DNA of 64,000 nt, taken from Terrimonas sp. (GTDB lineage: Bacteria > Bacteroidota > Bacteroidia > Chitinophagales > Chitinophagaceae). The translations under genes were made by a program, and so were the position numbers. The notes under the pieces are model-generated. The model was not told the origin of the DNA. It was given only the letters and a program-made list of their open reading frames with translations, and searched no databases. Where the stretch lies: assembly GCA_016125075.1 (NCBI GenBank), contig WGMO01000004.1, positions 124,001 to 188,000 on the forward strand, read 5' to 3'. Below are positions 8,292-36,841 of the stretch, one piece after another. Within the stretch, counting starts at the first letter, position 1, and each line of letters begins with the position of its first letter.

Positions 8292-9434
8292 TTGAAGGCA
8301 AAATCAATCAAGGGAAAAACAACAGCTGCTGTAAAATCGGCATTCCTGGAAAGCATCGCGGATGGGTTTAGGCCTACCCTGGCGATTTGCTTTATTTCAA
8401 AATCGATGGATAGAAAAGCCATCACCGACCTATTGGATGCTGAACAAGTTGCCATTTTCGGCTGTACTACCAATGGCGAGTTCATCAATGAAGAAACTGA
8501 AAAAGGGTCAGCTGCCATTCTCTTAATGGATATGAACAAAGATTATTTTGAAATTTATTTTGAAGAATACCCCGACAAAAATTACAGAAAGCTTGCCAGC
8601 GGGATTGCCCAAAAAGTCATTCAACGATTTGCCACACCGGCTTTTTTATTAGGCCTCAGCGATTCCTCGGTGGATGGGGAGGAGATCCTCCATGGCCTGG
8701 AGGATATTGTTGGGACTGAAGTCAATGCCTTTGGCGGGGGGGCAGGAGATGATTATGCCTTTACAGAATCGATTGTTTTTACCAACGAAAAGGAAAGTAG
8801 CAGTGGCCTCGTTTGCCTGGCCATCAACGAAGAAAAAATAATAATCAAAGGAATTGCCACCTGCGGATGGAAGGCCGTCGGAACTGAAAAAACCGTAACC
8901 AAAAGCGAAGGCAATCATGTATATACCGTAGACGATATTCCGGCCCTGGACATCACCGTAAAATTCGGTGGCCTGGAAAATATAACCCCCGAAAATAAAG
9001 ATGTGTTGGTAGAGATGGCTGCCAATTTCCCCCTGCAGTTACAAAGGGAAAAAGGGGATCCCGTAATGCGCCCGGGATTAGTAATCGACTGGACAGATCA
9101 TTCTTTTTACACCAGTGGCAAAGTACCCCAGGGATCGAAGGTTCGATTCTCTTTACCCCCTGATTTTGATGTGATGGAAAAAGTGGTGAAAGGAGTTGAA
9201 AATTTAAAAGCTACAGAAATGCCGGAAGCAGATGCTCTTGTGGTTTTCAGTTGTGCGGGCAGAATACTTTCTTTAGGGCCTTTAATGTCGCAGGAACTGG
9301 AGGGGGTAAAAAATGTCTGGAATGTTCCCATGGCGGGTATGTTCAGCAATGCGGAACTGGGCCGGGCCACCGGCGGAAACCTGGAAATGCATAACCTGAC
9401 GACCTGTTGTGTGGCCTTAAAGGAAAAAGAATAA
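8292..9434 (+). CDS. FIST-domain sensor protein 1 (FIST_N + FIST_C)
   Basis: This 380-residue soluble protein has the FIST_N domain (about residues 25-215) and FIST_C domain (about 220-365). Shared marks with its four neighbours are the KAKSIKGK start, IFGCTTNGEFI, FGGGAGDD, CGWKAVGTEKTVTKSEGN, SLPPDFD, FSCAGR and a C-terminal CCVALKEK. FIST domains are ligand-sensing modules, proposed to bind small molecules such as amino acids. They usually sit in front of signalling output domains; here they stand alone. The start is TTG at 8292, chosen because the other copies start at the same point with ATG. It is first in the array and lies 17 bases before the cyclase fusion. Ligand and partner are unknown. 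Confidence 0.86.
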   Translation: MKAKSIKGKTTAAVKSAFLESIADGFRPTLAICFISKSMDRKAITDLLDAEQVAIFGCTTNGEFINEETEKGSAAILLMDMNKDYFEIYFEEYPDKNYRKLASGIAQKVIQRFATPAFLLGLSDSSVDGEEILHGLEDIVGTEVNAFGGGAGDDYAFTESIVFTNEKESSSGLVCLAINEEKIIIKGIATCGWKAVGTEKTVTKSEGNHVYTVDDIPALDITVKFGGLENITPENKDVLVEMAANFPLQLQREKGDPVMRPGLVIDWTDHSFYTSGKVPQGSKVRFSLPPDFDVMEKVVKGVENLKATEMPEADALVVFSCAGRILSLGPLMSQELEGVKNVWNVPMAGMFSNAELGRATGGNLEMHNLTTCCVALKEKE

Positions 9435-9451
9435 AAATCGAAAAAAAAATC

Positions 9452-12064
9452 ATGTCTCAATCACGACAACTGGCTGCTATCATGTTTGTAGATATTGCCG
9501 GCTTTACCGCCTTAATGGAAAAAGACGAGCAAAAAGCCATGGGGTATCGCCAGAAACTGAAACAGCAACTGGAATCCGAAGTAGATGCACATGGTGGCCG
9601 GATCATCAAATGGATGGGAGACGGGGCCTTGTGCAGTTTTAGCAGCGCCATCGAAGCCCTGCATACAGCAAGGTCAGTACAACTCTTCATGCAAGAGGAG
9701 CCGGTTGTGCCGGTCCGTATCGGTATACACCAGGCCGATGTAATATTTGAAGAGGCTGATGTACATGGCGACGGGGTGAATATTGCTTCCCGGCTGGAGT
9801 CACTGGCCATTCCCGGCAGTATATTCATTTCAGCAAAAGTGCAGGATGATATCAAAAACCAGAATGATATTACAACTGTTTCACTGGGCAAGTACCTGTT
9901 AAAAAACGTTCATGAGCCCATCGAGATTTTTGCCGTCAGCAGCCCGGGGCTCCAGGTCCCCCTTAATAAAAAATTAGAAGGGAAAGGCATCAAATATGTG
10001 AACAGGAAAATATCCATCCGAAAAAAAACATTGTTGGTAAGGCTGGTCTTTGCACTGGCCATCCTGGTACTGGCCGGCTTTTTTATCATCCCCCCCTATT
10101 TTAAAAAGCTGAATGCCCGTAATAAATTATTACCGGCCATTCAAAAAATGGTGGAGGATAATTTCCGGGCCCCCACCAGGGCCTATGATATGGCACTGGA
10201 AGCAGAAAAAGTAATCCCGAAAGATTCTTCACTGATCAAACTCTGGCCCCAGGTATCGGTTACTCTTTCGATGGTGACCGAACCGGAAGGCGCTGAGGTA
10301 TACTGGAAAGACTATAACCAACCCGATGCTGAATGGAGACGGGCCGGAACCACACCCCTGGAAGACGCCAGGTTCCCTTTAGGGTATTTACGCATGGAAA
10401 TCCGGAAAAAGGGTTACCAGACCATTGAATATGCAGGTCCCTGGGCCTGGGGAAAATTAGGCCCTGATATTGATACCCTCAAACTGGATCCTGCCGGCAG
10501 CTTGCCGGAAAACATGATCAGGATCCCCGAAACTACAGCCAGTATGTATATTGTGGGTCTTGAACAGGAATCCGGAAAAAACGTTGGGGCGTTCCTGATC
10601 GACAAATATGAAGTAACCAATAAGCAATTCAGGGAATTTGTTGATGCAGGCGGCTATTCCAACCGTTCTTTCTGGAAATATCCTTTTGTGGAAAACGGAA
10701 AAGAAATTCCTGCAGCTGCAGCCATTGCAAAATTTATTGATAAAACAGGAAGGCCGGGGCCGGCCAACTGGGAAGCCGGTTCCTACCCGGACGGCATGGA
10801 AAACCATCCGGTAACAGGGGTATCCTGGTATGAAGCGGAGGCGTATGCAGCCTTTGCAAAAAAACAATTGCCCACCGTCTTTCACTGGAGCGTGGTGGCC
10901 CAGACCTCAAGAACAGAGTTCATTGTTCCTTTAAGTAATTATAGCGCTAAGTCTACGGTACCCGTTGGCAGCATGAAAGGGTACAGCTATATGGGTATTT
11001 ATGACCTGGCGGGTAATGCCCGCGAATGGTGTTTTAATGAAAGCAATCAGAAAGGTCAGCGATTCATACTGGGGGGTGGATGGAATGACCCGACTTATTC
11101 CTTTAATGACGGGTATACACAGTCGGCCATGGATAGAAGCGTTGCCAACGGCTTCCGCTGTATTAAAACGCTTCCGGAGGATACCACCTTAATACACCTG
11201 ACAGCAAAACTATCTTCTTTATTCAGAGATTACCGGAAGGAAAAACCGATAGATGATAAGACTTTCGCATTGTATCTGAGTCAATTCACTTATGATAAAA
11301 AGCCCCTGGATCCTAAAATCGAAGACACGATAGTAAGGGATTACTGGAAAGCGGAAAAAATAACCTTTGATGCAGGTTATAATAATGAACGGATGCAGGC
11401 CTGGCTATATTTACCGCTAAATAACAAACCTCCTTACCAGACGATCATTTTTTTCCCGGGCTCCAATGATATCTATTCCACGAAATTTGATCCGGAAAGG
11501 ATGAACCGGCTGGTAGGTTTTATTTTGAAAAGCGGAAGGGCCCTGGTCTGGCCAATTTACAAAGGGACCTGCGAAAGACATGACGAATTGAATTCAGACC
11601 TCCCGGATGAAACGGTTTTCTACAAAGACCATGTGCTGATGTGGGGAAAAGAATTCGGCAGAACCATCGATTACCTGGAAACCCGAACCGATATTCAGGC
11701 CGACAAAATTGGCTATCTCGGATGGAGCTGGGGTGGTTATATGGGGGGAATCATTCCCGCCGTGGAAAAAAGAATAAAAGCAGTGGTGCTCAACGTTGGA
11801 GGGATGGTGATGAACAAATCATTACCGGAAGCTGACCAGTTGAATTACCTTCCAAGGGTCACCCAGCCTATCCTCATGCTGAATGGAAAACACGATATGT
11901 TTTTCCCGGTAGCAAGCTCCCAAAACCCTATGTTTGACCTGTTGGGCACGCCTGTCGCAGATAAAAAAAGAATCATTTATGAATCAGGACACCTGGTGCC
12001 CCGTTTGGATTTTGTTAAGGAAACCCTGGCCTGGTATGATCAATACCTTGGTCCGGTGAAATAA
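9452..12064 (+). CDS. Class III nucleotide cyclase fused to PEGA, SUMF1-like and alpha/beta-hydrolase domains
   Basis: An 870-residue protein starting at ATG 9452. The class III cyclase domain (about residues 5-185) keeps both metal Asp (Asp14 in FVDIAGFT, Asp57 in WMGDGA) and the transition-state pair Asn110/Arg114 (GVNIASR). A transmembrane helix (about 196-215) follows, then a PEGA-type beta domain (267-330, TEPEGAEVYW), a SUMF1/FGE-like domain (350-580: DKYEVTNKQF, HPVTGVSWYEA, DLAGNAREW). Last comes an alpha/beta-hydrolase domain (643-870) with nucleophile Ser759 in GWSWGGYMGG, a possible acid in GKHDMFF and a His near the C-terminus. The SUMF1-like part lacks the paired active-site Cys of formylglycine generators, so it is more likely a binding domain. 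The cyclase would be cytoplasmic and the rest periplasmic, as inferred from the single helix. Confidence 0.85.
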   Translation: MSQSRQLAAIMFVDIAGFTALMEKDEQKAMGYRQKLKQQLESEVDAHGGRIIKWMGDGALCSFSSAIEALHTARSVQLFMQEEPVVPVRIGIHQADVIFEEADVHGDGVNIASRLESLAIPGSIFISAKVQDDIKNQNDITTVSLGKYLLKNVHEPIEIFAVSSPGLQVPLNKKLEGKGIKYVNRKISIRKKTLLVRLVFALAILVLAGFFIIPPYFKKLNARNKLLPAIQKMVEDNFRAPTRAYDMALEAEKVIPKDSSLIKLWPQVSVTLSMVTEPEGAEVYWKDYNQPDAEWRRAGTTPLEDARFPLGYLRMEIRKKGYQTIEYAGPWAWGKLGPDIDTLKLDPAGSLPENMIRIPETTASMYIVGLEQESGKNVGAFLIDKYEVTNKQFREFVDAGGYSNRSFWKYPFVENGKEIPAAAAIAKFIDKTGRPGPANWEAGSYPDGMENHPVTGVSWYEAEAYAAFAKKQLPTVFHWSVVAQTSRTEFIVPLSNYSAKSTVPVGSMKGYSYMGIYDLAGNAREWCFNESNQKGQRFILGGGWNDPTYSFNDGYTQSAMDRSVANGFRCIKTLPEDTTLIHLTAKLSSLFRDYRKEKPIDDKTFALYLSQFTYDKKPLDPKIEDTIVRDYWKAEKITFDAGYNNERMQAWLYLPLNNKPPYQTIIFFPGSNDIYSTKFDPERMNRLVGFILKSGRALVWPIYKGTCERHDELNSDLPDETVFYKDHVLMWGKEFGRTIDYLETRTDIQADKIGYLGWSWGGYMGGIIPAVEKRIKAVVLNVGGMVMNKSLPEADQLNYLPRVTQPILMLNGKHDMFFPVASSQNPMFDLLGTPVADKKRIIYESGHLVPRLDFVKETLAWYDQYLGPVK

Positions 12065-12092
12065 AAATCATTTTACTAAGAATTATCACAAA

Positions 12093-12914
12093 ATGGATCT
12101 GTTAAACAAACTGCTCGCCATCGATTTAAACTACATCATTATCGGGATTATCGCTTTGTTTTTTACCCTCGAACAGTTTTTAGGAGGCCAGTTTACATTC
12201 AAAAAAAGGGGACAGCATTTCTTTCAGAATTTTTTGTTCATGGTTGTTTTTGTTCTGCTCAACATATTGTGGGCAACGGTACTTATTGTATGTATTGAAT
12301 GGCTTAACAACCACGAGATTGGCCTTTTCTATTCTATTGAACTGCCTGTTTGGGCAAAATTAATTTTGGGGGTGGTATTATTTGATTTTGTAACCTACTG
12401 GTTTCACCGTATGGCCCATAACGTACCCCTGCTGTGGCGTTTTCACCGGGTTCACCATAGTGATACAACGATGGATTCTTCTACCTATTTCAGAGGTCAC
12501 CCGGTTGAAATATTTCTCTGGTTCAGCGTTTCGAATATAGTAGCCGCCGGTATTTTTGGTCTTGATCTTTACTCCTTAGGGTTATATACACTGGCAGTTA
12601 CTCCTTTCCTGGTTATAGAACATTCTAATCTCCGGTTTCCAAAATGGATCGATAAAACATTCGGGTTGATATTTACAACACCTAACATTCATAAAGTTCA
12701 CCATGAGCAGGACCAGCAATATACCGACTCCAATTATTCAGATATTTTCATTGTATGGGATCGACTCTTTGGTACTTTTAAACACAAACCGGTGGAAGAA
12801 ATAAAGTTTGGATTAGCTGAATTTGACGAGGAAAAAAAACAAGGCTTCTGGTATCTGCTCATAAGTCCTTTTATAAATATGGGGCGTATTGGTTCTGACC
12901 AGTTGAAAAAATAA
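12093..12914 (+). CDS. Sterol-desaturase / fatty-acid-hydroxylase family di-iron membrane enzyme
   Basis: A 273-residue protein with four hydrophobic segments and the full histidine-box set of the family: HRMAH, then HRVHH, then the C-terminal HKVHH. These bind two irons in the inner membrane, facing the cytoplasm. Family members hydroxylate or desaturate lipids; the substrate here is unknown. It follows the cyclase fusion by 28 bases and precedes FIST protein 2 by 5 bases, so it is almost certainly in the same message, an unusual companion for sensory genes. Confidence 0.88.
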   Translation: MDLLNKLLAIDLNYIIIGIIALFFTLEQFLGGQFTFKKRGQHFFQNFLFMVVFVLLNILWATVLIVCIEWLNNHEIGLFYSIELPVWAKLILGVVLFDFVTYWFHRMAHNVPLLWRFHRVHHSDTTMDSSTYFRGHPVEIFLWFSVSNIVAAGIFGLDLYSLGLYTLAVTPFLVIEHSNLRFPKWIDKTFGLIFTTPNIHKVHHEQDQQYTDSNYSDIFIVWDRLFGTFKHKPVEEIKFGLAEFDEEKKQGFWYLLISPFINMGRIGSDQLKK

Positions 12915-12919
12915 AAATC

Positions 12920-14083
12920 ATGCAGGCAAAATCGATAAAAGGAAAATCGTTATCAGCAATCGATACGGGATTAAGGGATATCATGGCCGACGGGTTCAAG
13001 CCAACTTTAGCCATCGTATTCCTGTCTGTGAAACAGGACAGAGAAGGTATTTCCCAATTACTGGACGAAAAAGGGATTCAGGTATTTGGAGCTACTACGG
13101 CAGGTGAATTTATAGATGGTGAAATTGAAGAAGGCAGCACTGTCATGATGTTGCTCGACATGAATCCGGCTTATTTTAAAATCGAATTCCGGGAAACCAG
13201 CCAGGAAAGCACATTAGCCGATGCAAAAAAACTGGGTATTACCGGAAAAGCGATCTTTCCCCATCCTGCTTTTATCATAGCAACAGGTGGAGTGTTCATC
13301 GATGGAGACCAGATTATTGAAGGAATCATACAGGGCTTTGGAAAACCAGTTTCGCCGGAAGATAAGGAACCCACAATTTTTGGCGGTATGGCCGGAGATG
13401 ATCTTTTAGCAGAAAAACCAATCGTTTTTACCAACGGAAAAAGCAGGGACAACGCAATTTTGGCACTTATTATTGATGAAGATAAAGTAGATGTCAGGGG
13501 TATCGCTTCCTGTGGCTGGAAAGCCATTGGCACGGCCAAAACCGTTACGAAAAGCGAAGGCAATACCGTATATACCATCGACGATAAACCGGCATTGGAT
13601 ATGTTGATGAAATACCTGGGCGTTGAAGTTAAACTGGACGAAAACAAGGAAATCGTTTCCTTTCTAAGTTCCTGGTACTATCCCCTGCAGCTGGACCGGG
13701 AAAATGGAGATACGGTCATACGCGCAACACGGTTTGCCAATCAAAAAGAACGTTCATTGATTTGTACCGGAACGGTGCCCCAGGGTTCAGCCATCCGCTT
13801 TTCTTTTCCACCGGACTTTGATGCGATTGAAACGGTGGTTGCAGAATGTGAGGGCATAAAAGATGATCCACAACAGCAGGCGGATGCCCTGATCATGTTT
13901 TCCTGTATCAGCAGGTATCTATCGTTTGGTGCTGTTACAAAAGAAGAAATTGAGCAGGTACAAAATATTTGGGGAGCCCCCATGGCAGGTTTTTTCACGT
14001 ATGGAGAATATGGAAGATCAAAAATTGGTACGAATGAATTTCATAATAATTGCTGTTGTGTAGTAGTATTAAAAGAAAAATAA
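12920..14083 (+). CDS. FIST-domain sensor protein 2
   Basis: A 387-residue FIST_N/FIST_C protein, soluble, with no signal peptide. Key signatures are VFGATTAGEFIDGE, FGGMAGDD, CGWKAIGTAKTVTKSEGN, VYTIDDKPALDM, SFPPDFD and FSCISR. It is closest in the window to FIST protein 4; both have IKQDRE/VKQDRE-type segments, GSTVMMLLDM and an FHNN tail followed by a Cys-rich end. It starts with ATG 5 bases after the desaturase-like gene. A 64-base gap with an imperfect hairpin separates it from FIST protein 3. Confidence 0.87.
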   Translation: MQAKSIKGKSLSAIDTGLRDIMADGFKPTLAIVFLSVKQDREGISQLLDEKGIQVFGATTAGEFIDGEIEEGSTVMMLLDMNPAYFKIEFRETSQESTLADAKKLGITGKAIFPHPAFIIATGGVFIDGDQIIEGIIQGFGKPVSPEDKEPTIFGGMAGDDLLAEKPIVFTNGKSRDNAILALIIDEDKVDVRGIASCGWKAIGTAKTVTKSEGNTVYTIDDKPALDMLMKYLGVEVKLDENKEIVSFLSSWYYPLQLDRENGDTVIRATRFANQKERSLICTGTVPQGSAIRFSFPPDFDAIETVVAECEGIKDDPQQQADALIMFSCISRYLSFGAVTKEEIEQVQNIWGAPMAGFFTYGEYGRSKIGTNEFHNNCCCVVVLKEK

Positions 14084-14092
14084 AATCGGTAC

Positions 14093-14134
14093 GGAGCCGG
14101 AAGTGATTTTTAAAATCTTCTGACTTCGGGCTTC
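14093..14134 (+). repeat. Imperfect inverted repeat between FIST 2 and FIST 3
   Basis: GGAGCCGGAAGT (14093-14104) and ACTTCGGGCTTC (14123-14134) pair with 10 of 12 positions around an 18-base AT-rich loop. It ends 13 bases before the ATG of FIST 3. It could be an intercistronic mRNA hairpin or a partial terminator, and the second arm contains short CTTC/ACTT iterations. Confidence 0.4.
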
Positions 14135-14147
14135 TAACTTAAAAAAT

Positions 14148-15305
14148 ATGGTAGCGCAATCAATACATGGAAATTCCCCTGGTGAAATTCAAAATAAGTT
14201 GAATCAATACCTGATTGAAGGATTTCAACCAACACTGGCCATTGTATTTATTTCCATTGAACAGGATACAAAAGCCGTTGCTGAAATGCTGCATCAAAAG
14301 GGAATTGATGTTTTTGGGGCCACTTCCGGTGGCGAATTCTGTAATGAACATCAATCGATGGGAGAAATTGTCATCCTACTGCTTGAACTGGATAAAAGCA
14401 AATACTATATTTCATTCGAAGATGTCAAAGGAAAAGACCTGGCAGATGTTTCACAAAAAATTGCACGGGACGCGTTGACCCAATTCGATAATCCGGCATT
14501 CCTTCTTTGCAGTACCACATTAACCAAAGAAGGTGAAATCCTGAACGGGGAAGTACTGGTGGAAAATATTGAAAAAATTATTGGCCCTGATGTAACCCTA
14601 TTTGGTGGAATGGCAGGGGACGATGGAAAATTTACAGGGACCTACGTTTTTAATCACGAAAAATCGACCGATGATGGAATCATTGCAGTGATTCTTGATA
14701 AAGACAAAATTGACTTGCACGGAATGGCCTTATCGGGCTGGAAAAAGATAGGTTTAGCAAGGACCATTACAAAAAGTAAGGGCAGATTAATGTACAGTAT
14801 TGATAACCAGCCTGCCGTTGATATGTATTTAAAATACCTTGGCAATGAAAATTTTTTAGATAAGGACAAGTATAAAATATTTGAGGCCGTTGGGGTACAC
14901 TATCCATTTCAAATTCAATCGGAAAATGGAGAATCGGTAATGGTAACACCCATGGGAATAAATAAGGACGAAAATGCCCTGATTTGTGAAAAAGAACTAA
15001 AGGAGGGCTCAACGCTTCATTTTTCTGAACCCCCCGATTTTGATATTGTGGAAACGATATTGCAAAATGCGTCGGAATTGAAAAATGAAAAACAGGCAGC
15101 AGCCGATGCACTTTTAATTTTTTCATGTATTGGCAGGCACACCGCCATGGGACCGATGGCGCAGGAAGAAAACGAAGGCCTGGCTAATATCTGGAAAGCA
15201 CCTATGGCAGGGTTTTATACCTATGGCGAATTTGGAAGAAGTCCCCAGGGTAAACGAAGAATGCATTCCACCACTTGCAGTTGGGTGGCATTAAAAGAAA
15301 AATAA
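14148..15305 (+). CDS. FIST-domain sensor protein 3 (divergent copy)
   Basis: A 385-residue FIST_N/FIST_C protein. It keeps VFGATSGGEFCNE, FGGMAGDDG, SGWKKIGLARTITKSKG, SEPPDFD and FSCIGRHTAMGP. It departs from the others at the otherwise conserved GNxVYT segment (here GRLMYS) and starts VAQSIHGN instead of xAKSIKGK. This suggests an older split or altered ligand preference. Its stop is two bases from the start of the broken FIST 5 copy at 15308. Confidence 0.86.
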   Translation: MVAQSIHGNSPGEIQNKLNQYLIEGFQPTLAIVFISIEQDTKAVAEMLHQKGIDVFGATSGGEFCNEHQSMGEIVILLLELDKSKYYISFEDVKGKDLADVSQKIARDALTQFDNPAFLLCSTTLTKEGEILNGEVLVENIEKIIGPDVTLFGGMAGDDGKFTGTYVFNHEKSTDDGIIAVILDKDKIDLHGMALSGWKKIGLARTITKSKGRLMYSIDNQPAVDMYLKYLGNENFLDKDKYKIFEAVGVHYPFQIQSENGESVMVTPMGINKDENALICEKELKEGSTLHFSEPPDFDIVETILQNASELKNEKQAAADALLIFSCIGRHTAMGPMAQEENEGLANIWKAPMAGFYTYGEFGRSPQGKRRMHSTTCSWVALKEK

Positions 15306-15307
15306 TA

Positions 15308-16432
15308 ATGAAAGCAAAATCAATCAAAGGAAAATCAGCAGCAGAAATCAAGAAAGCCCTCGGGCAAAGCATGGCCGACGGGTACAAACCAACATTAGCC
15401 TGCGTATTTCTGACTGATGTTGAAGAGATCAATCCTGTTGCTGCCGTGCTGGATGCAGCAGCCATTACCATATTTGGCGCCAGTACATCCGATAAATTTA
15501 ATGAAGAGGGCATTGACCCGGATAGTATTATTGTATTGCTGATGGACATGAACCCCGCTTATTTTAAGCTGGTGCTAAAAGATTATAATGCAGCCGCGGT
15601 GTATGAGGCTGCAAGCGAAGTAGGTACAGCCGGGAAAAATGCATTTGATCACCCGGCATTTATTATTTCCACAGTAGATATAAAAATTCCCGGTGAAGCA
15701 ATGATCAAGGGGTTAACCGACAAAGCGGGAATGGGTGTTACTGTTATTGGAGGTGTAGCGGGAGAACACACCCAATTTACCGGTACCCTGTTTACCAATC
15801 ATTCAAAAACCAGTTCCGGGATAATATCCCTGATTCTGGATGAAGATAAAATTGATGTAAAAGGAATGGCTGTATCCGGGTGGAAACCTGTAGGCACAGA
15901 AAAAAAGATCACGAAAAGTGATGGCAATTGAGTATTTACCATCAATCATGAACCGGCCATGTATGTGATAAAAAAATTTCTGGGTACTGAAATGCTGACA
16001 AGTGATAAATCTGACGGACTGGACAGCTATCCCCTGCAATTCCAACGGGATGCAAAAAAGCCCATCATGCGGCCTATTATATTGTGGAATAAGAAAGACA
16101 ATTCAGTGATGTTGGGTGCCCCGGTGGAGGAAGGTGCTTCTTTTCGGTTTTCATTACCCCCGGATCTGGAAGTGATCGACACGGTAATAGAAAGCACAAG
16201 GGCCGTAAAAGAAAAGGAATTACCCGATGCGGATGCGATGCTGATTTTTTCCTGTGTAGGCAGGCAATCTACTTTGGGGCCCATGGTGGCATCAGAGATT
16301 GAAGGACTGGCTTCCACCTGGAATAAACCCATGGCTGGTTTTTTCTCACTGGGGGAATATGGTAAGCTGGATGATGACCGTTCAGAATTTCATGGCACCA
16401 CCGTAAGCTGGGTAGTCTTAAAAGAAAAATAA
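15308..16432 (+). pseudogene. FIST-domain sensor protein interrupted by an in-frame TGA
   Basis: The frame from ATG 15308 to TAA 16432 encodes a complete FIST_N/FIST_C protein of 374 codons except for TGA at 15929-15931 (codon 208). The stop falls right after the KSDGN segment, in the middle of the conserved CGWK...VYT block. Both sides align with the intact neighbours without any frameshift (VFTINHEPA continues after the stop). Upstream, 207 residues hold the FIST_N domain; downstream lie the FIST_C signatures SLPPDLE, FSCVGRQSTLGP and WVVLKEK. Either it is a recent nonsense allele, or two half-proteins are made (an ATG at 15959 could restart). A sequencing error is also possible. Confidence 0.8.
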
Positions 16433-16464
16433 TACAGTAACAATTATTAGTCCTAAAATATAAA

Positions 16465-16791
16465 ATGATGAAAAAAGGAATGATTAAAGTAAGTGTCCTC
16501 TATCCAAATGCTGAGGGCAAAAAATTTGATATGGACTATTATATCCAGCAACATGCCCCCCTGGTTGCGCGAACTTTGGGTAATGCTTTGCAAGCTGCCA
16601 GCTATGATAAAGGAATAGGGGGTGGAGCTCCGGGAACACCTGCTCCAAACGTTGCGATGGCCAACCTGTATTTTAATTCCCTGGAGGAATTTGGCCAGGC
16701 ATTTGGAGCGGCTGCGCCCATTTTAACGGGAGAATTACCTAATTATACAGATATCACACCCGTATTGCAGATCAGTGAAGTGATGGATTAA
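16465..16791 (+). CDS. EthD-like small ferredoxin-type-fold protein
   Basis: A 108-residue protein with the EthD-family pattern: a first beta strand MIKVSVLYPNA, then MDYYIQQHAPLV (the D-Y-Y-x-x-x-H-x-P motif) and a closing strand near PVLQISEV. EthD-like proteins are small dimeric alpha/beta-barrel proteins, some needed for ether degradation; for most the chemistry is unknown. Two adjacent ATG codons (16465, 16468) are possible starts. It sits between the broken FIST copy and FIST 4, with 25-32 base gaps, so it is part of the same transcript. Confidence 0.8.
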   Translation: MMKKGMIKVSVLYPNAEGKKFDMDYYIQQHAPLVARTLGNALQAASYDKGIGGGAPGTPAPNVAMANLYFNSLEEFGQAFGAAAPILTGELPNYTDITPVLQISEVMD

Positions 16792-16816
16792 TTGGAAACA
16801 TTAAACCCGAATTTCT

Positions 16817-17956
16817 ATGCAGGCAAAATCAATAAAGGGAAATACAATTGAAGAAGTTAAAACAGCTTTTGAGCAATGCTTGTCGAATGGGTACAAGCCT
16901 ACTTTAGCAATTGTTTTTCTGTCCATCAAACAGGATCGGGAAGCAGTTTGTACATTACTCAACAAAAACGGTATAGCCATTTTCGGGGCTACCACATCCG
17001 GTGAATTCATCAATGGCGAAACGGAAGAGGGTAGTACCGTTATGATGCTGCTGGATATGCATCCGGACCACTTCAGACTGGAATTCCTCGTGACGGGATC
17101 TCAGACCACAATTGAAAACGCAAAACAGATTGGATTGACCGGTAAAAACACATTCTCCAATCCGGCTTTTATTATTGCATCCGGGTGGCTGTCGACGGAT
17201 GGTGAAAATATTGTGGAAGGAATTACCGAAGGTTTTGGGGGTGATGTGACCATATTTGGGGGTATGGCCGGTGATGACCTGGCGTTAACAGGTCCTCTTG
17301 TTTTTACGAGTGGGCAAAGCCACACCCAGGGTTTGCTGGCATTGATCATTGATGAGGACAAAATTCAGATCAATGGCATTGCCACCTGTGGATGGAAACC
17401 AATCGGTACTACCAAAACTGTTACCAAAAGTGAAGGGAATGTGGTGTATACCATTGATGATAAACCTGCGCTGGATATGATCATCAAGTACCTGGGTGTA
17501 GAGGATGATTTTGTATCCGGGAAAGAAATCGTTTCACAACTGACCGCGCTTTATCCATTGCAAATGGAAAGAGATGGAGTGGCCCCAGTAATGCGTACCG
17601 CCATGTTTGCCAACAGGGTTGACCGATCGCTAATTTGTGCAGGTAATATCGCGCAGGGATCAAAAGTGAGATTTTCTTTACCCCCCGATTTTGATGCCAT
17701 TGAACAGGTGGTGGAAGAATGCAGGCAACTAAAAAATGAATGCCAGCCGGAAGCAGATGCCTTGATTATGTTTTCCTGCATCAGTCGTCGTTTATCCTTT
17801 GGGGTTTTGATGCGTGAAGAAATAGGGCAGATTCAAGAGCTCTGGGATGCTCCCCTGGCCGGTTATTTCAGTTACGGCGAATTTGGCAGATCCAAAACCG
17901 GTAAACACGAGTTTCATAACAATACCTGTTGCGTTGTTGCTTTAAAAGAAAAATAA
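16817..17956 (+). CDS. FIST-domain sensor protein 4, abutting a histidine kinase
   Basis: A 379-residue FIST_N/FIST_C protein with the full set of repeat marks (IFGATTSGEFINGE, FGGMAGDD, CGWKPIGTTKTVTKSEGN, SLPPDFD, FSCISRRLSFG, CCVVALKEK). It is most like FIST 2. Its TAA is immediately followed by the ATG of a cytoplasmic histidine kinase with no base between, the arrangement expected if the FIST proteins provide ligand input to that kinase. This functional link is inference from position. Confidence 0.88.
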   Translation: MQAKSIKGNTIEEVKTAFEQCLSNGYKPTLAIVFLSIKQDREAVCTLLNKNGIAIFGATTSGEFINGETEEGSTVMMLLDMHPDHFRLEFLVTGSQTTIENAKQIGLTGKNTFSNPAFIIASGWLSTDGENIVEGITEGFGGDVTIFGGMAGDDLALTGPLVFTSGQSHTQGLLALIIDEDKIQINGIATCGWKPIGTTKTVTKSEGNVVYTIDDKPALDMIIKYLGVEDDFVSGKEIVSQLTALYPLQMERDGVAPVMRTAMFANRVDRSLICAGNIAQGSKVRFSLPPDFDAIEQVVEECRQLKNECQPEADALIMFSCISRRLSFGVLMREEIGQIQELWDAPLAGYFSYGEFGRSKTGKHEFHNNTCCVVALKEK

Positions 17957-18997
17957 ATGAACCCACAGCTTCAAATTCTAATGGATTTCATTCAGCAGAA
18001 CGAACATGTAGCTGAAGAAGCAAAAACTGATTTGCTCAAAGCTGTCAAGAAAGTAAAAAACGATCTCGAAATCGCTGAATTCAAACTGGAAAGAACAGAA
18101 AAAGTAAAGCGAACCACGGCAATCCTCCTCGAAGAAACGATTGAAGAACTTGAACAAAAAAGAAAAGCCATTGAAGAAACCAATATTGCCCTCCAGCAAT
18201 CCCTGGAAGAATTAAAGGCTGCACAGGCGCAACTGATCCAGTCGGAAAAAATGGCCAGCCTGGGAGAACTCACCGCCGGCATTGCCCATGAAATCCAAAA
18301 CCCCCTGAATTTCGTCAACAACTTCTCCGAGGTCAGTAAAGAACTGCTGGATGAAATGAAAGAAGAACTGGACACTGGGCACCCGGAAGTGGCAAAAGAA
18401 ATCGCAAATGATGTGATTCAAAATCTTGAAAAAATCCTTCATCATGGCAAAAGGGCCGATGGCATTGTAAAAGGCATGTTGCAGCATAGCCGCAGCAGTA
18501 GCGGACAGAAAGAACCAACGGATATCAATGCTTTGGCCGATGAATATCTCCGATTAGCATATCATGGCCTGAGAGCTAAAGACAAGTCATTCAATGCTGC
18601 GATGAAAACCGATTATGATGATCAGATTGGCCTCATCAATATTATGCCCCAAGATATGGGCCGGGTCATCCTTAACCTGATCACCAATGCATTTTATGCG
18701 GTTACACAAAAGAAAAAACAGTATCCGGAAGGGTATGAACCGGTCGTTACGGTTAGCACCCAACTCCTGAATAACAGGATAGCTATCCGGGTAAAAGACA
18801 ATGGATCGGGTATTGATGATAAAGTGCTAGACAAGATATTTCAGCCCTTTTTTACCACCAAACCCACCGGCCAGGGAACCGGCCTGGGATTGAGTTTGAG
18901 TTATGATATTGTAAAAGCACACGGAGGTGAACTGCATGTAGAAACAAAAGAAGGTGAAGGAAGTACATTTATAATTCAATTACCTGCTGGTACATAA
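17957..18997 (+). CDS. Cytoplasmic coiled-coil histidine kinase (HK1)
   Basis: A 346-residue soluble kinase. Residues 1-95 form a charged, Glu/Lys-rich helix, predicted coiled coil, with no membrane segment or known sensor. The core follows: H-box with His111 ([17 protein letters not shown]), then a [18 protein letters not shown] stretch, N-box ([10 protein letters not shown]), G1 (DNGSGI), F-box ([11 protein letters not shown]) and G2 ([11 protein letters not shown]). All ATP-binding motifs are intact. The core is the shortest and simplest version of the one repeated in six more genes to 40776. It directly abuts FIST 4. No receiver domain is attached and no response regulator follows. Confidence 0.9.
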   Translation: MNPQLQILMDFIQQNEHVAEEAKTDLLKAVKKVKNDLEIAEFKLERTEKVKRTTAILLEETIEELEQKRKAIEETNIALQQSLEELKAAQAQLIQSEKMASLGELTAGIAHEIQNPLNFVNNFSEVSKELLDEMKEELDTGHPEVAKEIANDVIQNLEKILHHGKRADGIVKGMLQHSRSSSGQKEPTDINALADEYLRLAYHGLRAKDKSFNAAMKTDYDDQIGLINIMPQDMGRVILNLITNAFYAVTQKKKQYPEGYEPVVTVSTQLLNNRIAIRVKDNGSGIDDKVLDKIFQPFFTTKPTGQGTGLGLSLSYDIVKAHGGELHVETKEGEGSTFIIQLPAGT

Positions 18998-19070: not shown

Positions 19071-20363
19071 GTGAAAAAAATTATATACCTGATACTCCTG
19101 GCAACCTGCACCGTTTGTTTTCAATCATGTGAAAACAAAGAGGAATTCCATATGCCCGGTGAGTTTGAACCGCAGGAAGCTGTTTGGCTTGGCTGGCAGG
19201 CTTATGAAAACTATTACCCGGTAAACATCAGTATGGTACGATCACTTTTACCTTTTGTAAAAGTAAAAATTGCAACGGAAAGCGACAGTATACAGATAAT
19301 TGCAAAAAAACTGCTTGCAGAAAATAAGATTGATACCTCACAGGTTCAATTCTTTACAATGCCTAATAATGAATTCTGGATGAGAGATCATGGGGCCGCA
19401 TTCATTATAAATGGAAAAGGCGACATGAAAGCAGTGGATTTTGTTTGGGGAACCTATGGCTACAGGGAGTGGCTGATTGAGAAATATAATGGCAACGAAA
19501 AAAAGGCTGACAGTGCATTAACCAAATCACTTGCCAGTAAAAGAGGAAAAGTTGACAGCCTGATGGGTGTTGCAGAAAATATACCTGTTGAAAGATCATG
19601 GATACGTATAGAAGGCGGTGCAATTGAAGTAAATGGAAAAGGTACATTACTGCTCAATGAACCCCTGACGCTGAGCCGGAACAAAGGAATTTCAAAAGAC
19701 AGCATTGCCCGGGAATTTAAAAGGGTACTGGGTGTTAAAAATATTATCTGGCTGCAAACAGGCCTGGCAGAAGATCCGCATATCATTGAAAGGATCACCG
19801 GTAAATATGTAGGCATAGGCACCGGCGGCCATACCGATGAGTATGTAAGGTTTGCTGATGCAAATACCATACTACTGGCCTGGATGCCGGAAGAAGAAAA
19901 AGACATGAATCCAGTCAATAAGATCAATTATGAAAGAATGAACATCAACTATAATATTCTTTCCAGTGCAAAAAATGAAAATGGCAAGCCATTTAAGATC
20001 ATTAAAGTGCCGCTGCCTGACCTCATTTCAAAACAAATAAAGTTACTTGATAAGGGCAATTGGGATGACAGCCTGAATATGCCTGTATCTGCATTTAAGG
20101 AAAGCGAAAACTTTAAAGCAGGCGATACAGCATACCGGGTAGCTGCAGCCAGTTATCTTAATTTTTATGTTACCAACAGGATGGTATTGCTGCCTTCTTA
20201 TATCAGCCAGGGCACCGCTGCAAAAAAAGAGGAGGCGGTAAAACAATTATTTCAATCAGCATTTCCCGGAAGGGAAATAATTTTTATGGATGCCATGCCG
20301 CTTAATTGGGAAGGTGGCGGGATACATTGCGGAACACAACAACAACCCAAAATAAGAAAATGA
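19071..20363 (+). CDS. Lipoprotein agmatine deiminase-like enzyme (PAD_porph family)
   Basis: A 430-residue protein of the agmatine/peptidyl-arginine deiminase family. The catalytic Cys420 is in GGGIHCGTQQQP; the active-site Asp/His pieces are MRDHGAAF and GGHTDEYVRF, with ERSWIRIEGGAIE and NEPL motifs between. Family enzymes hydrolyse agmatine to N-carbamoylputrescine and ammonia or act on related guanidines. The N-terminus (GTG start) has a lipoprotein-like signal with Cys at a plausible lipobox (residues 13-20, FQSC), so it is likely attached to the periplasmic face or the cell surface, whereas typical AguA is cytoplasmic. Its TGA overlaps the ATG of the giant kinase (ATGA at 20360-20363). 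Substrate is inferred by family. Confidence 0.85.
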   Translation: MKKIIYLILLATCTVCFQSCENKEEFHMPGEFEPQEAVWLGWQAYENYYPVNISMVRSLLPFVKVKIATESDSIQIIAKKLLAENKIDTSQVQFFTMPNNEFWMRDHGAAFIINGKGDMKAVDFVWGTYGYREWLIEKYNGNEKKADSALTKSLASKRGKVDSLMGVAENIPVERSWIRIEGGAIEVNGKGTLLLNEPLTLSRNKGISKDSIAREFKRVLGVKNIIWLQTGLAEDPHIIERITGKYVGIGTGGHTDEYVRFADANTILLAWMPEEEKDMNPVNKINYERMNINYNILSSAKNENGKPFKIIKVPLPDLISKQIKLLDKGNWDDSLNMPVSAFKESENFKAGDTAYRVAAASYLNFYVTNRMVLLPSYISQGTAAKKEEAVKQLFQSAFPGREIIFMDAMPLNWEGGGIHCGTQQQPKIRK

Positions 20364-23300
20364 AACTGACTAAAAAACTGGAGGCTGAAGTACTCAAAGC
20401 CTATCATACTTATTGGGATTCCTATCTCGGTGGTGATATAAAGACTTTTGCTTCTTTACTGGACGATAACTGCCACATCATTGGCTCTACGGCACATGAC
20501 ACGTTCAATAATAAGAAAGATGCAGTAGCATTTTATAAAGCTACAGCAAAAGAAGTAGCAGGCGTTGGAGAATACAGAAACCGTAACATAACAGTTCTGC
20601 CGGAAGGTAATAATGTAATGGTGCAGGAGATATGTGACTATTATTTTCTTAACAAAAAGGAATGGCATTTTTACGGCGTTGCCCGTTTATCTACTTTATT
20701 CAGTAAAAGATCAGGAAAATGGAAGATCATTCATCAACATGGTTCCCTGCCCGATTCAAGAGCTGAAGAAGGTCAGCAGTTAGGTACCGAAAAAATAACA
20801 AAAGAAAACCTCCGGTTGAAGGAAGCGATCAAACGAAACACGATTGAATTGCTGAATAAAAACCGGGAACTGGAAATTGAAACAGCACTTGAAAAAGTAC
20901 GTGCCATTGCCATGGGCATGAAGGAGCCGAAAGATATGCTGGAAGTTTGTAAAACCATTTCCCTTCAGTTGCAATCATTAGGAGTAAAAGAAATCCGCAA
21001 TATACAAACGGCCATATTTTATGAGAGCAGGGGCAACTACATGAATTATGAATACTATGCCAAACATCGAAAAAAAATTATCACCGAAACAAGCTATACC
21101 AATAATAAAATGCATAAAGCCTTTGCTGCAAAAATGCTCAAGGGCAAGGATGAATTTTTTACTTCTCACATCAAGGGTAAAAAAGTAAAAGATTGGCTGG
21201 CTTACCAGAAAACCACCAATGTTTTTATTGATAAATATTTAAGCACTGCCTCTTCACTTAATTATTACTGGGATTCGCTGGGTCCTGTAGCATTGGGAAT
21301 ATCAACCTATGTTCCGCTTAATGAAGAAGGGCTGAATCTTTTTAAACGGTTCCGGAATGTGTTTGAACTGGCATATACAAGATACCTGGATATTGAACAG
21401 GCGCTGGCACAGGCCAGGGAAGCACAGGTTGAAGCGTCGCTTGAAAGGGTAAGGGCGCAGGCAATGGCCATGCATCAACAGGAAGACCTGGTGAACATCT
21501 GTGAAACATTTTACAAAGAATTTAATGTACTGGGCTTTAATGGCCTCAGAAATGCCATGATCAACATTTACAATGATGAACAAAAAACATTTGTGAATTA
21601 TGATTACTCCGATGTGATCGGCAAAAGCATCAATCATTTAACCTATGATATACATCCTGAAATTGAAAAACAAGTAAAGCAGGTACGTAAAGCCAACGAT
21701 GCTTTTTCTGAAACGGTGTTTAAAGGAACAGGCCTGGAAAGCATGAAAAAGTTCAGAAAAAGAATTGGTGAAAAAGATGACCCGAGGATAAAAAACTGCA
21801 AAGCACTGTACTATTATTTTTATTCAATTGGCGCCGGCGCAATTGGTATCTCTACATTCAACCCGGTTACAGAAGAAAAACTGGAGCTCCTGAAACGGTT
21901 CCGGAATGTGTTCAACTTTTCTTATCAGCGTTATACAGATATTGCTTTGGCAGAAGCACAGGCAAGAGAAGCAGAAATAGAGCTGGCATTAGAAAGAGTA
22001 CGTGCCAGAACCATGGCCATGCATAACAGTAGTGAATTAGCTGAGGTTGCTGTTTTGCTTTTCGAACAGGTCAAACACCTGGGCGTTAAATCTTTCAGCA
22101 GCGGATTTAATATCTGGGATAGCGAACATAAAAATCTCATCTCGTGGATGAGTAATGCTACTGGCGAGATCAATCCGCCATTTGAATTGCCAATAAAGGA
22201 TTATGAACAACACAAGCGGATCTTTGCTGCCTGGAAAAGAAAGGAGTTGTTTTTAGAAGATGATATCGAAGGCAAGGCGCTTACCAGGCATTATAAATTC
22301 CTCCGATCTTTTCCCCTGCTCGATGCATCATTTAGCCAGGCCGAGGAGGCAGGCATTAAAATACCCGACAGGCAGGTACATAATATCGTCTTTTTTTCAA
22401 ACGGCTATTTATTATTTATCACACAGGAGCCAACGCCGCAATACCATAGCATTTTTATGCGCTTTGGCAAAGTATTCGATCAAACCTATACCCGTTTCCT
22501 CGACCTGCAAAAAGCCGAAGCTCAGGCGAAAGAAGCAAGGATAGAAACAGCACTGGAAAGAGTTCGTGCCGTTGCCATGGCGATGAAAAAATCGGATGAG
22601 GTGATCAATGTGTGCGAAGTAATGTATAAAGAACTGCAATCTCTGGGTTTTACCAATATCCGGAATGCGCAGATCGCACTCAAAAATGATAGCAGGCAAT
22701 CCTATTCTATCTCCGTTTATTCCGATAACGAATCAGTGCTCTTTGGGGAGGCACATTATCACAGCTCTCCAATTGTAAAGGACCTGTACCGGGAATTAGA
22801 AAAATCTAAAGATGCTTTCTATCAAAGAGAATTTTCGGGAAAGAAATTTAAAGACTGGCGCAAATGGCGGCAAGGCTTATCTCCATTCGCAGATAGCCGG
22901 GAAGCATCGGCTGCCTCTATGTGTTTCTATTTATATTCAATAGGTATCGGGCATATCGGTATTTCAACTTTTAATGCCATTACAGAAATACAGATCGAAA
23001 TGCTGAAACGTTTTAAAAACGTATTTGAACTCTGTTATACCCGGTATATTGATGTGGCAAAAGCAGAAGTACAGGCAAGAGAAGCACAAATAGAATTAGG
23101 ATTAGAGAGAGTGAGAGCCCGGGCAATGGCCATGCAGCATTCTGATGAATTATCGGACCTCGTGGACACACTTTTTACGGAACTGACAAAACTCGATTTT
23201 GCATTAAGCTGGTGCATGATCAATATCATTGATGAACCTGCTTCAAGCAATACCCTTTGGATGGCAAACCCGGATATTGACCAGTCATTGAAATCCATTC

Positions 23301-26300
23301 AGATGAAGTTTGAGGATTGGCCTTTCCATCATGCCTCTTTGAAAGCATACAGGAAAAGACAAAGCAAATTTGTCTATGTGATGGAAGGAAAGGAAAAAAA
23401 GGATTATGAGCAGTACATGTTTAATGAAACGGAGGTTGGTAAAGTTCCTGCTAAAGCAAAGGCGGACATGAAAGCCATGAAGCGATATGTGTTTACCTAT
23501 TCTTTCAGCAATTTCGGTGGGTTACAAACAGTTGGCGAAGAACCCTTATCAGAAGAAAATCTGGATATCCTCAGTCGCTTCGGAAAAGTATTTGATCTTA
23601 CTTATACCCGTTTCAATGATCTGCAAAAAGCAGAGGCACAGGCACGGGAAGCAGAAATTCAATTAGCATTGGAAAGAGTCAGGGCCAGAACAATGGCCAT
23701 GCAAAAAAGTGAAGAACTCAAAGAGGTGATTCAGCTCGTATATGAACAATTCATTCACCTGAACATTCCTATTGAACATACGGGTTTTCTTATTGATTAT
23801 ACAGCCACGGATCAGATGCATATCTGGGTGGCAGATAAACACCTGGCTCCCTCAGAGATAACTATACCCTGGTTTGATTCTCCACCCAATAACAGCATCA
23901 AAGAAGCAAAAGAAAAGGGACAGGGTTCTTTTTCATACACGCTGACCTTTGAAGAAAAAAACAAATTTTACCGGGATCTTTTTAAGTTTATTCCAGGCAT
24001 ACCGGTGGAATCAATGGACTATTATTTCAAATGCCCCGGCCTTGCCGGATCAGGGGTATTGTTAGAGAATGTTGGTTTATATATCGAGAATTTTTCCGGT
24101 ACTCCTTACTCAGATGAAGAGAATAATACACTCATGCGCATTGGAAAGGTTTTCCAACAAACCTATACCCGCTTCCTTGATCTCCAAAAGTCAGAAACAC
24201 AATCAAGAGAAAATCAAATTCAATTAGCGCTGGAACGGGCCCGCACACAAAGTATGGTGATGCAACATTCAAATGAGCTGGATGATACATTAAGGGTTTT
24301 TCATGAACAGGTTTTACAACTTGGTATAAAATCATCCTTTTCTTTTTTATGGTTGCCCGATGAAGAGAAAAGCAATCACCTATTCTGGGCTGCCTGGAAA
24401 GAAGGCAAAGATGATTCCGCCATCTTTAAAAGTAAGGCCATTACTTATCCGCTTGACAGCAATGAACCTGCTACTGCACAATGCCTGGTTGACTGGAGAA
24501 GTGATGAGCCGGTTCATTCCTATGCCGTAAAGCCTGCAGAAGTAAACAATTATTTTACTGTGTGGGCAGAATTGCTGGATGGTGTTGATCATTTAAAGCC
24601 AGAGTATTTTCACAGAGGACTTCATTATGTGGAAGCCTTTATGAAATATGGCTGTTTTGGAGTGATGGTTGAAAGCGAATTGACTGAAGAAGAAAAAAAG
24701 ATACTGCTTCGGTTTTCTATTGAATTTGAGCAAACCTATACCCGCTTTCTGGATCTTCAAAAAGCGGAAGCACAGGCCAGGGAAGCACAGGTAGAAGCTG
24801 CATTGGAAAAAGTGCGGTCACGTTCATTGGCCATGCATAAAAGTGATGAAATGCTATCTGTAATTAAAGTTGTTTCAGCGCAATTGCAACATTTGAATCT
24901 GAATTTTGATACTGTTAGCTTCGGTGAGAATAATCAGGAAGGTGATTTTAAATTTTGGATAACCTCAAGCGGGCAACCCAAGCCGGTATTTATGCAGGTG
25001 CCTTCCCTTAATAGTGTAGTTCAGAACCGGGTAAAAGATGCGAAACAAAAAGGAATCAGTTTTTTTACAGATGTATTAACAGCAGATGAAAACAGGGAAT
25101 GGAGTCAGCATCTTATTGATAATTCCGAGTTTAGATTTTTCCCTGAAAAAGTAAAAGCCTTTGTGCTGAATAGCCCCGGTTTTGCCAGGTCAAGTTTTTT
25201 ATTGAAGAATATCGATTTGTATTTAGGCAATTACAGGGCTATTCCATTTACAGAAGAAGAGAATGCTATTTTTAAAAGGTTTGCCCAGGTTTTTGAACAG
25301 TCCTACACCCGTTTCTTAGATCTCCAAAAAGCAGAGGCGCAGGCAAGAGAAGCACAGATAGAAGCCGCATTGGAAAAAGTAAGATCCCGTTCACTGGCCA
25401 TGCATACTGCCAATGAACTTAGCGAAGTGGTTACTGTTATTGTTGAAAAATTAACAGAACTGGATGTGGTGTTAGATGCCAATGGTGTGGTGCTTTGTAC
25501 TTATTTCCCCGATTCAAAAGATGTATTGCACTGGATTGTGTCACCCGATTTCAGCATGGCAGGAAGTTACCTGCTGCCTTACTTCGACCATCCGATTTTT
25601 AATGATGCCTGGAATTCAAAAATAGCCGGTGATGATTATTTTTCAAAAGCATTTTCTGTTGAAGAAAAGAATAGTTTTTTTGAATATGCATTTGAACATT
25701 CCGACTATAAGAATTTTCCCGAAGAGTTTAAACAATGGATTTTTCAAAATGATAAACATGTCCTTTCTTTTGCCTGGCAAAAAAATTCTGCCATTCTTAT
25801 TCCCTCGCATTCAGGTGTGGTTCCCAATGAAACAGAGAAGCAAATATTGATACGTTTCGCTAATGTTTTTGAGCAGGCTTATGTGCGATTTATGGATCTG
25901 CAAAAAGCAGAAGCACAGGCAAGGGAAGCTAAAATAGAAATGGCACTGGAAAAGATCCGTTCCCGTACCATGGCCATGCAACACAGTGATGAGCTGCCAG
26001 AGGCAGCAAATCTCTTATTCCTGGAAGTGCAGGCACTGGGTATTCCTGCATGGAGTTGCGGCTACAATATTCTTGCAGAAGATAAAAAGTCAAGTACCTG
26101 CATTATGAGCAGTGAAGGCCGGATACAGTCAGCCTTTCATCTACCCTTCACAAATTCAGGAGAACCTTCTTTTGCTGAATGGCTGGTAGCGATAGAAAAA
26201 GAAGAATTTTTTGTACAGGAGCTTAGCGGTAAAAAGATTGAAGACCATTATAACTATATGAAGACCCTGCCGCATGTGGGGCACGTCATAAAAGAACTTG

Positions 26301-30476: not shown

Positions 30477-30634
30477 TATTTGCCGGTTGGAACAACGATT
30501 GAATGATCCGGTGCAAAGGGAAAAGGATAAGTTATCTTTAAGTATACAACTGTACTCTTTCCTGCCGGCAATATGTGCGAAATACAGGAAGGAAAAGCGG
30601 GTAAGCTTATTTTTCAATTACCAACAACAACCAG

Positions 30635-34780: not shown

Positions 34781-34789
34781 ATACATCTC

Positions 34790-36832: not shown

Positions 36833-36841
36833 TATTACGAA

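Follow-up and report, generated by a model that had tools for sequence, protein, structure and literature searches.

A row of stand-alone FIST genes of different subfamilies precedes a histidine kinase with a conserved N-terminal module in Terrimonas sp.: a probable split two-component sensor

A 64,000-nucleotide (nt) stretch of the Terrimonas sp. genome GCA_016125075.1 (contig WGMO01000004.1, here C13, positions C13:124001-188000), called the window below, carries five genes of the FIST family in a row that ends in a soluble histidine kinase, HK1. Coordinates without the C13 prefix are those of the window. This cluster is probably a split two-component sensor, in which several FIST receptors would dock on an N-terminal module of HK1 and a receiver-cyclase would act as output. 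The evidence comes from the FIST genes and their order, the conservation of the module, its co-occurrence with FIST genes in other genomes and the subfamily structure of the FISTs. Many Bacteroidota possess such rows of different stand-alone FIST genes ending in one signalling gene with a short N-terminal piece in common, apparently a docking site through which several soluble sensors would control one output.

Gene content of the FIST array

Five matches to the FIST family PF08495 were found in the 3.92 Mb genome at E-values up to 0.001, all of them in this array. The array, its kinase and the kinase module comprise the following features:

8292..9434, + strand: FIST 1, subfamily F1, TTG start, 380 residues (Pfam FIST and FIST_C; F1 clade)
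9452..12064, + strand: fusion of class III nucleotide cyclase, membrane segment, FGE-sulfatase-like domain and alpha/beta hydrolase, 870 residues (Pfam, hydropathy)
12093..12914, + strand: fatty-acid-hydroxylase family membrane protein (PF04116)
12920..14083, + strand: FIST 2, subfamily F2, 387 residues (Pfam; F2 clade)
14148..15305, + strand: FIST 3, subfamily F3, 385 residues (Pfam; F3 clade)
15308..16432, + strand: FIST 4, subfamily F4, in halves of 207 and 166 codons (sequence, Pfam on the halves, F4 clade)
16465..16791, + strand: small protein of the EthD family, 108 residues (TIGR02118, 72.1 bits, NCBIfam cut-off 30.5)
16817..17956, + strand: FIST 5, subfamily F5, 379 residues (Pfam; sequence; predicted fold)
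17957..18997, + strand: HK1, soluble histidine kinase, 346 residues (HisKA and HATPase_c, no hydrophobic window)
17957..18187, + strand: HK1 N-terminal module, residues 1-77, proposed FIST-coupling module (alignment A3, neighbourhood tests)

The five FIST genes span 8292-17956. Four are intact, with FIST_N (PF08495) and FIST_C (PF10442) both over the Pfam gathering cut-offs (8292-9431, 12920-14080, 14148-15302 and 16817-17953), and the fourth in order is interrupted by an in-frame TGA (15929-15931) lying between a FIST_N half (15308-15928) and a FIST_C half (15932-16429), which share one frame and each match Pfam. An earlier note on this DNA had counted five stand-alone FISTs, which is correct for the family matches, although only four of the genes are uninterrupted. 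Recoding of the FIST 4 TGA is disfavoured, because its F4 relatives in the tree described below, all of at least 340 residues as frames outside 340-470 residues had been dropped beforehand, have open frames, and no internal stop was seen among the matches listed. The TGA may stem from an assembly error.

From FIST 1 to HK1 all genes lie on the + strand with gaps of 0-64 nt. The stop codon of FIST 5 (TAA, 17954-17956) is followed directly by the ATG of HK1 at 17957, both genes being in one frame with only the stop between them. The contact between a FIST stop and the kinase start pointed out in the earlier note is thus genuine, the FIST concerned being the fifth. Since the same gene order recurs across Bacteroidota, the array goes beyond chance.

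The N-terminal module of HK1

HK1 carries HisKA from residue 102 and HATPase_c from residue 233, both over the Pfam cut-off, and an H-box histidine, His111, assigned by motif. Hydropathy revealed no 19-residue hydrophobic window and Pfam no sensor domain, in agreement with the earlier note's remark that the kinase has no sensor of its own. The conserved element lies ahead of the catalytic domains. An alignment of 32 copies of this N-terminal module (A3) contains 13 invariant columns, with a core of F-K-L-x-R-x-E-K, seven residues and then L-L-x-E-T-I-x-E-L; within it, K43 and L44 hardly ever vary.

Pfam assigned no convincing family to the 32 members: its hits were spread over eight families, none of them seen in more than 3 members, with a best E of 0.0004. 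NCBIfam gave no match to the window copy, and a PDB sequence search with the module returned a single match at E 0.1. A literature search on titles and abstract openings, with few subscription papers covered, yielded no account of FIST arrays or of such a module. The portable module therefore appears to be undescribed in the libraries and literature searched.

The proteins that open with the module differ in what follows it. Among 62 module-bearing proteins, 43 are kinases of up to 400 residues (3 cut by contig ends), 9 have 401-700 residues, 3 exceed 700 residues, 2 are of the SpoIIE type and 5 show no core (4 cut by contig ends). Outputs unlike HK1 comprise a giant protein in locus L085 and SpoIIE-type proteins in L096 and L128, the latter confirmed by Pfam. 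Because short kinases, giant kinases and SpoIIE phosphatases can all carry the module, it is the module, not the kinase core, that FIST associates with. Consistent with this, the module profile has a single match in the window, HK1; the other kinases of the window with the same core type are without it.

Conservation of the FIST-module association

The association was examined in both directions. The forward sample consisted of 79 named loci fetched with FIST 5 as the sole query, so that loci without an F5-like FIST are under-represented. By their titles these loci belong to Flavobacteriaceae, Chitinophagaceae, Algoriphagus and relatives, Bacteroidales and Ignavibacteria/Chlorobi bins, together with one Gammaproteobacteria and one Ectothiorhodospiraceae bin. 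The module was found in 62 of the 79, and in 13 of the 17 loci without it at most 1057 bases remain after the last FIST. Where at least 600 bases lie beyond the FIST, the next same-strand gene after the last FIST matches HK1 in 55 of 64 loci; this count drops 15 of the 79 (14 arrays less than 600 bases from the end and 1 without a FIST gene over the threshold). Some of these HK1 matches cover the kinase core only by BLAST, and the 77-residue profile still finds the module at the gene start. In 43 of the 62, a gap of -4 to +8 nt separates the FIST stop from the beginning of the module.

In the reverse direction, genomes were searched with A3 only, without any FIST reference, and the DNA around the module places was scanned with the FIST profile. 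The module was present in 49 of 394 genomes of the family sample, at 53 places, and in 15 of 395 genomes of the phylum sample, the own genome included. Leaving aside 4 strong places at contig edges, 4 weak ones and 1 not recovered, 44 of the 53 places were strong and judgeable, and 39 of these have a FIST on the same strand no more than 1.6 kb upstream, 27 of them within 50 nt. At the other module places of the phylum sample, an upstream FIST within 1.6 kb accompanies all 14 (13 within 50 nt). The earlier note had proposed a gene-neighbourhood search, and regarded its idea as refuted if FIST genes did not stand beside such kinases elsewhere and no interface was predicted; the first half of this condition falls away, because the succession of FIST and this type of kinase recurs in other genomes.

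Co-occurrence at the genome level points the same way. Array-type FIST, taken as a match with E at most 1e-60, was seen in 43 genomes, 38 of which also have the module (G100 on a weak module match); among the 351 genomes lacking such a FIST, 11 have the module (Fisher p 2e-37). The genome lists for this test and for the Fisher test on receiver-cyclases below were compared by eye, and the numbers of copies given for a genome are minimum values.

FIST subfamilies and conserved residues

In a tree built from 211 FISTs of arrays and 8 of the solo type (single FIST genes, described below), the five window copies fall in five groups: F1 with 54 sequences from 49 loci (support 1.0), F2 with 30 from 30 (1.0), F3 with 41 from 39 (1.0), F4 with 16 from 15 (0.98) and F5 with 25 from 24 (0.85). 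The subfamily counts that follow refer to arrays with the module and to FIST genes of 340-470 residues. Arrays having a given type nearly always hold a single copy of it (F1 42/44, F2 23/23, F3 29/30, F4 10/11 and F5 20/21). Among 50 arrays with 1.5 kb available upstream, 10 have one FIST, 8 have two, 17 three, 13 four and 2 six, so that the module with a single FIST also exists. The FIST adjoining the module, counted for gaps of up to 300 nt, belongs to F1 in 16 of 58 cases, F3 in 14, F5c in 10, F2 in 7, F5b in 6, F5 in 4 and another type in 1.

As judged from the tree, the window FISTs are distinct subfamilies and not recent copies. The presence of one FIST of each type together with a varying module-adjoining type thus fits several receptors sharing one partner rather than recent duplication. 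The earlier note had imagined interchangeable FIST receptors feeding one kinase; this is upheld in that several FISTs are present and that different subfamilies can abut the kinase, and is modified in that the conserved partner is not HK1 as a whole but its first ~75 residues, a part shared with other outputs.

Residues common to the array and solo FIST classes include a GGxAGD stretch, a GW pair, the cysteine and arginine of a CxxR motif, two glutamates and His367. The CxxR cysteine (Cys321 of FIST 5) is present in 99% of the 211 array FISTs. A search for a ligand pocket among subfamily-specific positions (80% conservation within each of five subfamilies, with three or more different residues among the subfamilies) left only positions 353, 368 and 371, all near His367, which are too few to prove one.

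Candidate output

A receiver-cyclase is present in 46 of the 49 module genomes and in 48 of the 345 others among the 394 family genomes (p 7e-30). In L098, L089, L106 and L132, a receiver-cyclase lies closely downstream together with a gene for a receiver or a protein resembling one (Pfam was run on L098). In the Terrimonas genome, a 75% identical receiver-cyclase occupies C13:189659-190696, beyond the window end, and is directly preceded by a receiver, the pair lying ~47 kb downstream of the array on the same strand. The receiver-cyclase shares a contig with the module in 21 of the 46 genomes, in 19 of which it is downstream, on the same strand and within 50 kb (by eye). The receiver-cyclase is the best candidate target and a likely output, one that is not exclusive to the FIST-module system.

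Proposed mechanism

In the mechanism proposed here, the four intact soluble FISTs, being of different subfamilies, would each bind a different small ligand, and each would dock on the ~75-residue helical N-terminal module of HK1. Docking would alter the readiness of HK1 to phosphorylate His111, in one direction or the other, and the phosphate would then pass to receivers, most likely the CheY-like receiver and the receiver-cyclase ~47 kb downstream. Phosphotransfer to the latter would set the level of a cyclic nucleotide. Because the same module carries giant kinases or SpoIIE in other genomes, the FIST set may plug into these other outputs elsewhere. Candidate ligands are nitric oxide (NO)/heme, aldehydes and ring metabolites, the last on account of fold kinship with chorismatases and cyanuric acid hydrolases.

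Counter-evidence and alternative explanations

Several observations weigh against this mechanism. Four loci (L078, L080, L126 and L133) have at least 3.5 kb after the FIST and yet no module. Conversely, 5 of the 44 judgeable module copies are without an upstream FIST: L140, whose module match is partial (59 bits), L143 and L179 have other genes upstream, and L145 and L146 have upstream neighbours like those of the window (YitT-like and HD-domain-like, named by eye). No module was found in 5 of the 43 genomes with array-type FIST (G041, G119, G130, G194 and G324). Touching stops and starts may reflect co-expression only, and no fusion protein of FIST and module exists among the 186 sequences formed by 185 loci and the window. 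As to the output, 48 genomes have the receiver-cyclase without the module, 25 of the 46 module genomes have it on another contig (by eye), and it is far from the module in G285 (114 kb) and G271. Finally, a model of FIST 5 fused to HK1 residues 1-110 gives no measured interface, its predicted template modelling score (pTM) being 0.77 against 0.86 for the FIST alone.

The alternative that survives best is plain NO or heme sensing of the NosP type, in which each FIST would be a NosP, the copies would provide dosage or redundancy and HK1 would be a NosK; we regard it as unlikely. NosP with NahK/NosK and NarR/NosR (Pseudomonas, Legionella, Burkholderia; NF041558) likewise consists of a solo FIST and a soluble kinase without sensor, and the FIST_N/FIST_C architecture is the same. 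PMC12570481 reports two-hybrid binding between NosP and NosK and control of NosK autophosphorylation by NosP; NosK is described, in that source and in PMC8846402, as having no membrane segment, no recognised sensor and about 130 residues before the kinase domains. Weak matches to NF041558 were obtained with FIST 1 (39.5 bits), FIST 2 (47.4), FIST 3 (55.5) and FIST 5 (48.3), the halves of FIST 4 giving no match to that model, and His367 is common to both FIST classes. These scores are far below the NosP cut-off of 450 bits, for which reason the array was not filed as NosP, although the solo-type FIST of L023 also stays below it (62.4 bits). The copies also belong to distinct subfamilies, of which an array seldom holds more than one member each, a pattern that redundancy would not keep. 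In comparison with NosP systems, the present arrays have several FIST subfamilies per kinase, a conserved N-terminal module that also occurs on SpoIIE and giant kinases, and a likely output of receiver and class III cyclase instead of a cyclic di-GMP (c-di-GMP) enzyme. No receiver or c-di-GMP domain, as a NosP-type partner response regulator in the operon would have, was detected in Pfam scans of the same-strand run 8292-40776, which covered all but the 225 codons forming the front half of the last kinase; outside this run, the genome was not searched for c-di-GMP domains. By analogy, the array would work like the NosP-kinase systems, with several receptors per kinase.

A second FIST class of the family has the layout of NosP and NosK. 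The best PF08495 matches in the family are solo FISTs, and as these are single genes beside kinases, the earlier note's premise that FIST domains are normally N-terminal parts of signalling proteins fails here, the NosP-NosK/NahK pairs being a further precedent. At loci L006-L036, the gene after the solo FIST opens with a different conserved helical N-terminal segment in 28 of 31 cases (by eye) and shows an H-box in 25 of 31 by a crude string search, some loci ending before the kinase domain; in L023, the one locus on which Pfam was run, it is a HisKA and HATPase kinase. These pairs resemble the array in that the FIST gene precedes one whose product opens with a helical segment and, where enough of it is visible, is a kinase; they differ in having a single FIST; the window FISTs are 21-23% identical to that of L023. 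This second segment is apparently found on more than one kinase type. Similarity between the module and the solo-FIST-kinase segment (alignment A7) did not reach significance, hhalign giving a probability of 1% and E 0.05, though the 17 aligned columns are at similar positions.

A somewhat less probable explanation is that the module is a mere dimerisation coiled coil of the kinase lineage, its link with FIST being historical through a mobile or co-inherited operon. The fused model is in keeping with a coiled coil, since its HK1 part forms a short helix (3-14) and a long one (20-109), and if the unit had been transferred as a whole, this would fit the ~70-79% identity at which FIST 5 and HK1 recur in many distant Bacteroidota. 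Against it, the module swaps its C-terminal partner between short kinase, giant kinase and SpoIIE and keeps the upstream FIST, and it is absent from the window's other kinases of the same core. In the fused model the predicted local distance difference test (pLDDT) averages 88.2, compared with 87.8 for the FIST alone, and residues 361-370 rise from a mean of 65 in the FIST alone to 89; this rise is only a hint, because the two alignments differ (53 rows fused, 31 alone) and no inter-domain error was returned.

The fold of the FISTs bears both on ligands and on the last alternative. A PDB sequence search with the four window FISTs alone gave nothing useful, and a profile of eleven solo-type and four window FISTs reached human FBXO22 at E 0.06 (0.065). 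The FIST domain of FBXO22, the only FIST among the solved structures returned by these searches, is also the top fold match to the FIST 5 model (8s7d_D, Z 22.8, root-mean-square deviation 3.1 over 258 residues). FBXO22 differs in being a ubiquitin ligase subunit without a signalling kinase, and its sequence match is weak. Its Cys326 aligns with Cys321 of FIST 5 (numbered from the printed alignment), and PMC13316043 states that this cysteine forms covalent hemithioacetals with aldehyde compounds. In nine loci (L111, L112, L114, L115, L118, L120, L122, L123 and L135; seven have Algoriphagus or Belliella in their titles), one F5c-type FIST with its module-bearing kinase is directly preceded by genes for a thiamine-diphosphate enzyme and a member of the amine-oxidase family, as named by Pfam on one protein of each kind. 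Enzymes of both families can make aldehydes. From the cysteine match and these nine loci, aldehyde sensing is a lead only.

The next best folds are those of chorismatases and cyanuric acid hydrolases (Toblerone fold), with Z 10.6 to 12.8 over 229-243 residues; these are enzymes, and the kinship is uninformative on the function of array FISTs. The enzymes interspersed in the window array are those named in the earlier note, a cyclase fusion, a di-iron lipid-type enzyme and an EthD-like protein, as borne out by Pfam and, for EthD, by NCBIfam. The hydroxylase scores 78.6 bits against OlsE, below the cut-off of 475, and its relatives adjoin FISTs in L039, L089 and L092. The cyclase-FGE-hydrolase fusion is a local array member seldom met in other FIST loci. 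EthD-like relatives of ~100 residues form a cluster in 34 loci with 31 copies within arrays, and the 2 that were tested are both over the Pfam EthD cut-off. At the place of EthD between FIST genes, L057 has at 1188-1580 a SnoaL-like match below the cut-off (22.4 against 27 bits), in a protein whose cluster has members in three named loci. That the FISTs act on these enzymes as allosteric or substrate-binding subunits, with HK1 merely co-transcribed and untouched, is the least probable of the three alternatives and quite improbable: the enzymes inside the window array, the EthD-like genes inside many others and the enzyme-like fold speak for it, yet the cyclase fusion and the hydroxylase are rare at other loci, and the module is nearly constant and specific.

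The kinase island downstream of the array

The genes described from 8292 to 40776 all share the + strand, and the gaps between them range from -4 to 158 nt. Downstream of HK1 these include:

20360..28435, + strand: giant kinase of 2691 residues with the same kinase core type as HK1 (Pfam)
28446..40776, + strand: further kinases of the same core, namely tetratricopeptide repeat (TPR) kinases and a kinase of 1381 residues (open reading frames, Pfam, HisKA search, gaps)

Histidine kinases of similar core thus form a dense island (17957-40776) on the strand of the FIST array. Of the 23 HisKA matches in the genome, nine fall in the interval from C13:142260 to C13:188440 of this contig. A gene of the Porphyromonas-type peptidyl-arginine deiminase family (19071-20363, PF04371) separates HK1 from the giant kinase. 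The giant kinase, relatives of which often come after the short kinase in other loci, contains a SnoaL-like domain followed by about ten repeats of roughly 190 residues (by eye), for which Pfam gave no family over its cut-off except a marginal DCC1-like match (28.2 bits, cut-off 27.8). The TPR histidine kinase at 38833-40776 is split by an in-frame TAG (39508-39510) and is thus, besides FIST 4, the second gene of the island with a single in-frame stop. Just past the window, C13:188440-190696 holds a further kinase followed by the receiver and the receiver-cyclase.

Significance

Taken together, the split sensor proposed for this cluster suggests a more general principle, to which we give about even odds: a portable FIST-coupling domain of ~75 residues would let up to six FISTs, usually one per subfamily, share one output, with a cytosolic logic like that of CheA and its chemoreceptors and with reactive ligands such as aldehydes possibly being caught at the FIST cysteine. 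The 75-residue module, which stays constant with FIST while the output changes, offers a small and direct target for the question of docking, and because kinases occur in nature with two, three, four or more FIST subfamilies each, ligand specificity can be compared on one read-out. If it is true that these receptors share one kinase, the arrays would be an exception to the rule of one sensor per histidine kinase, and signals would be integrated before phosphorylation.

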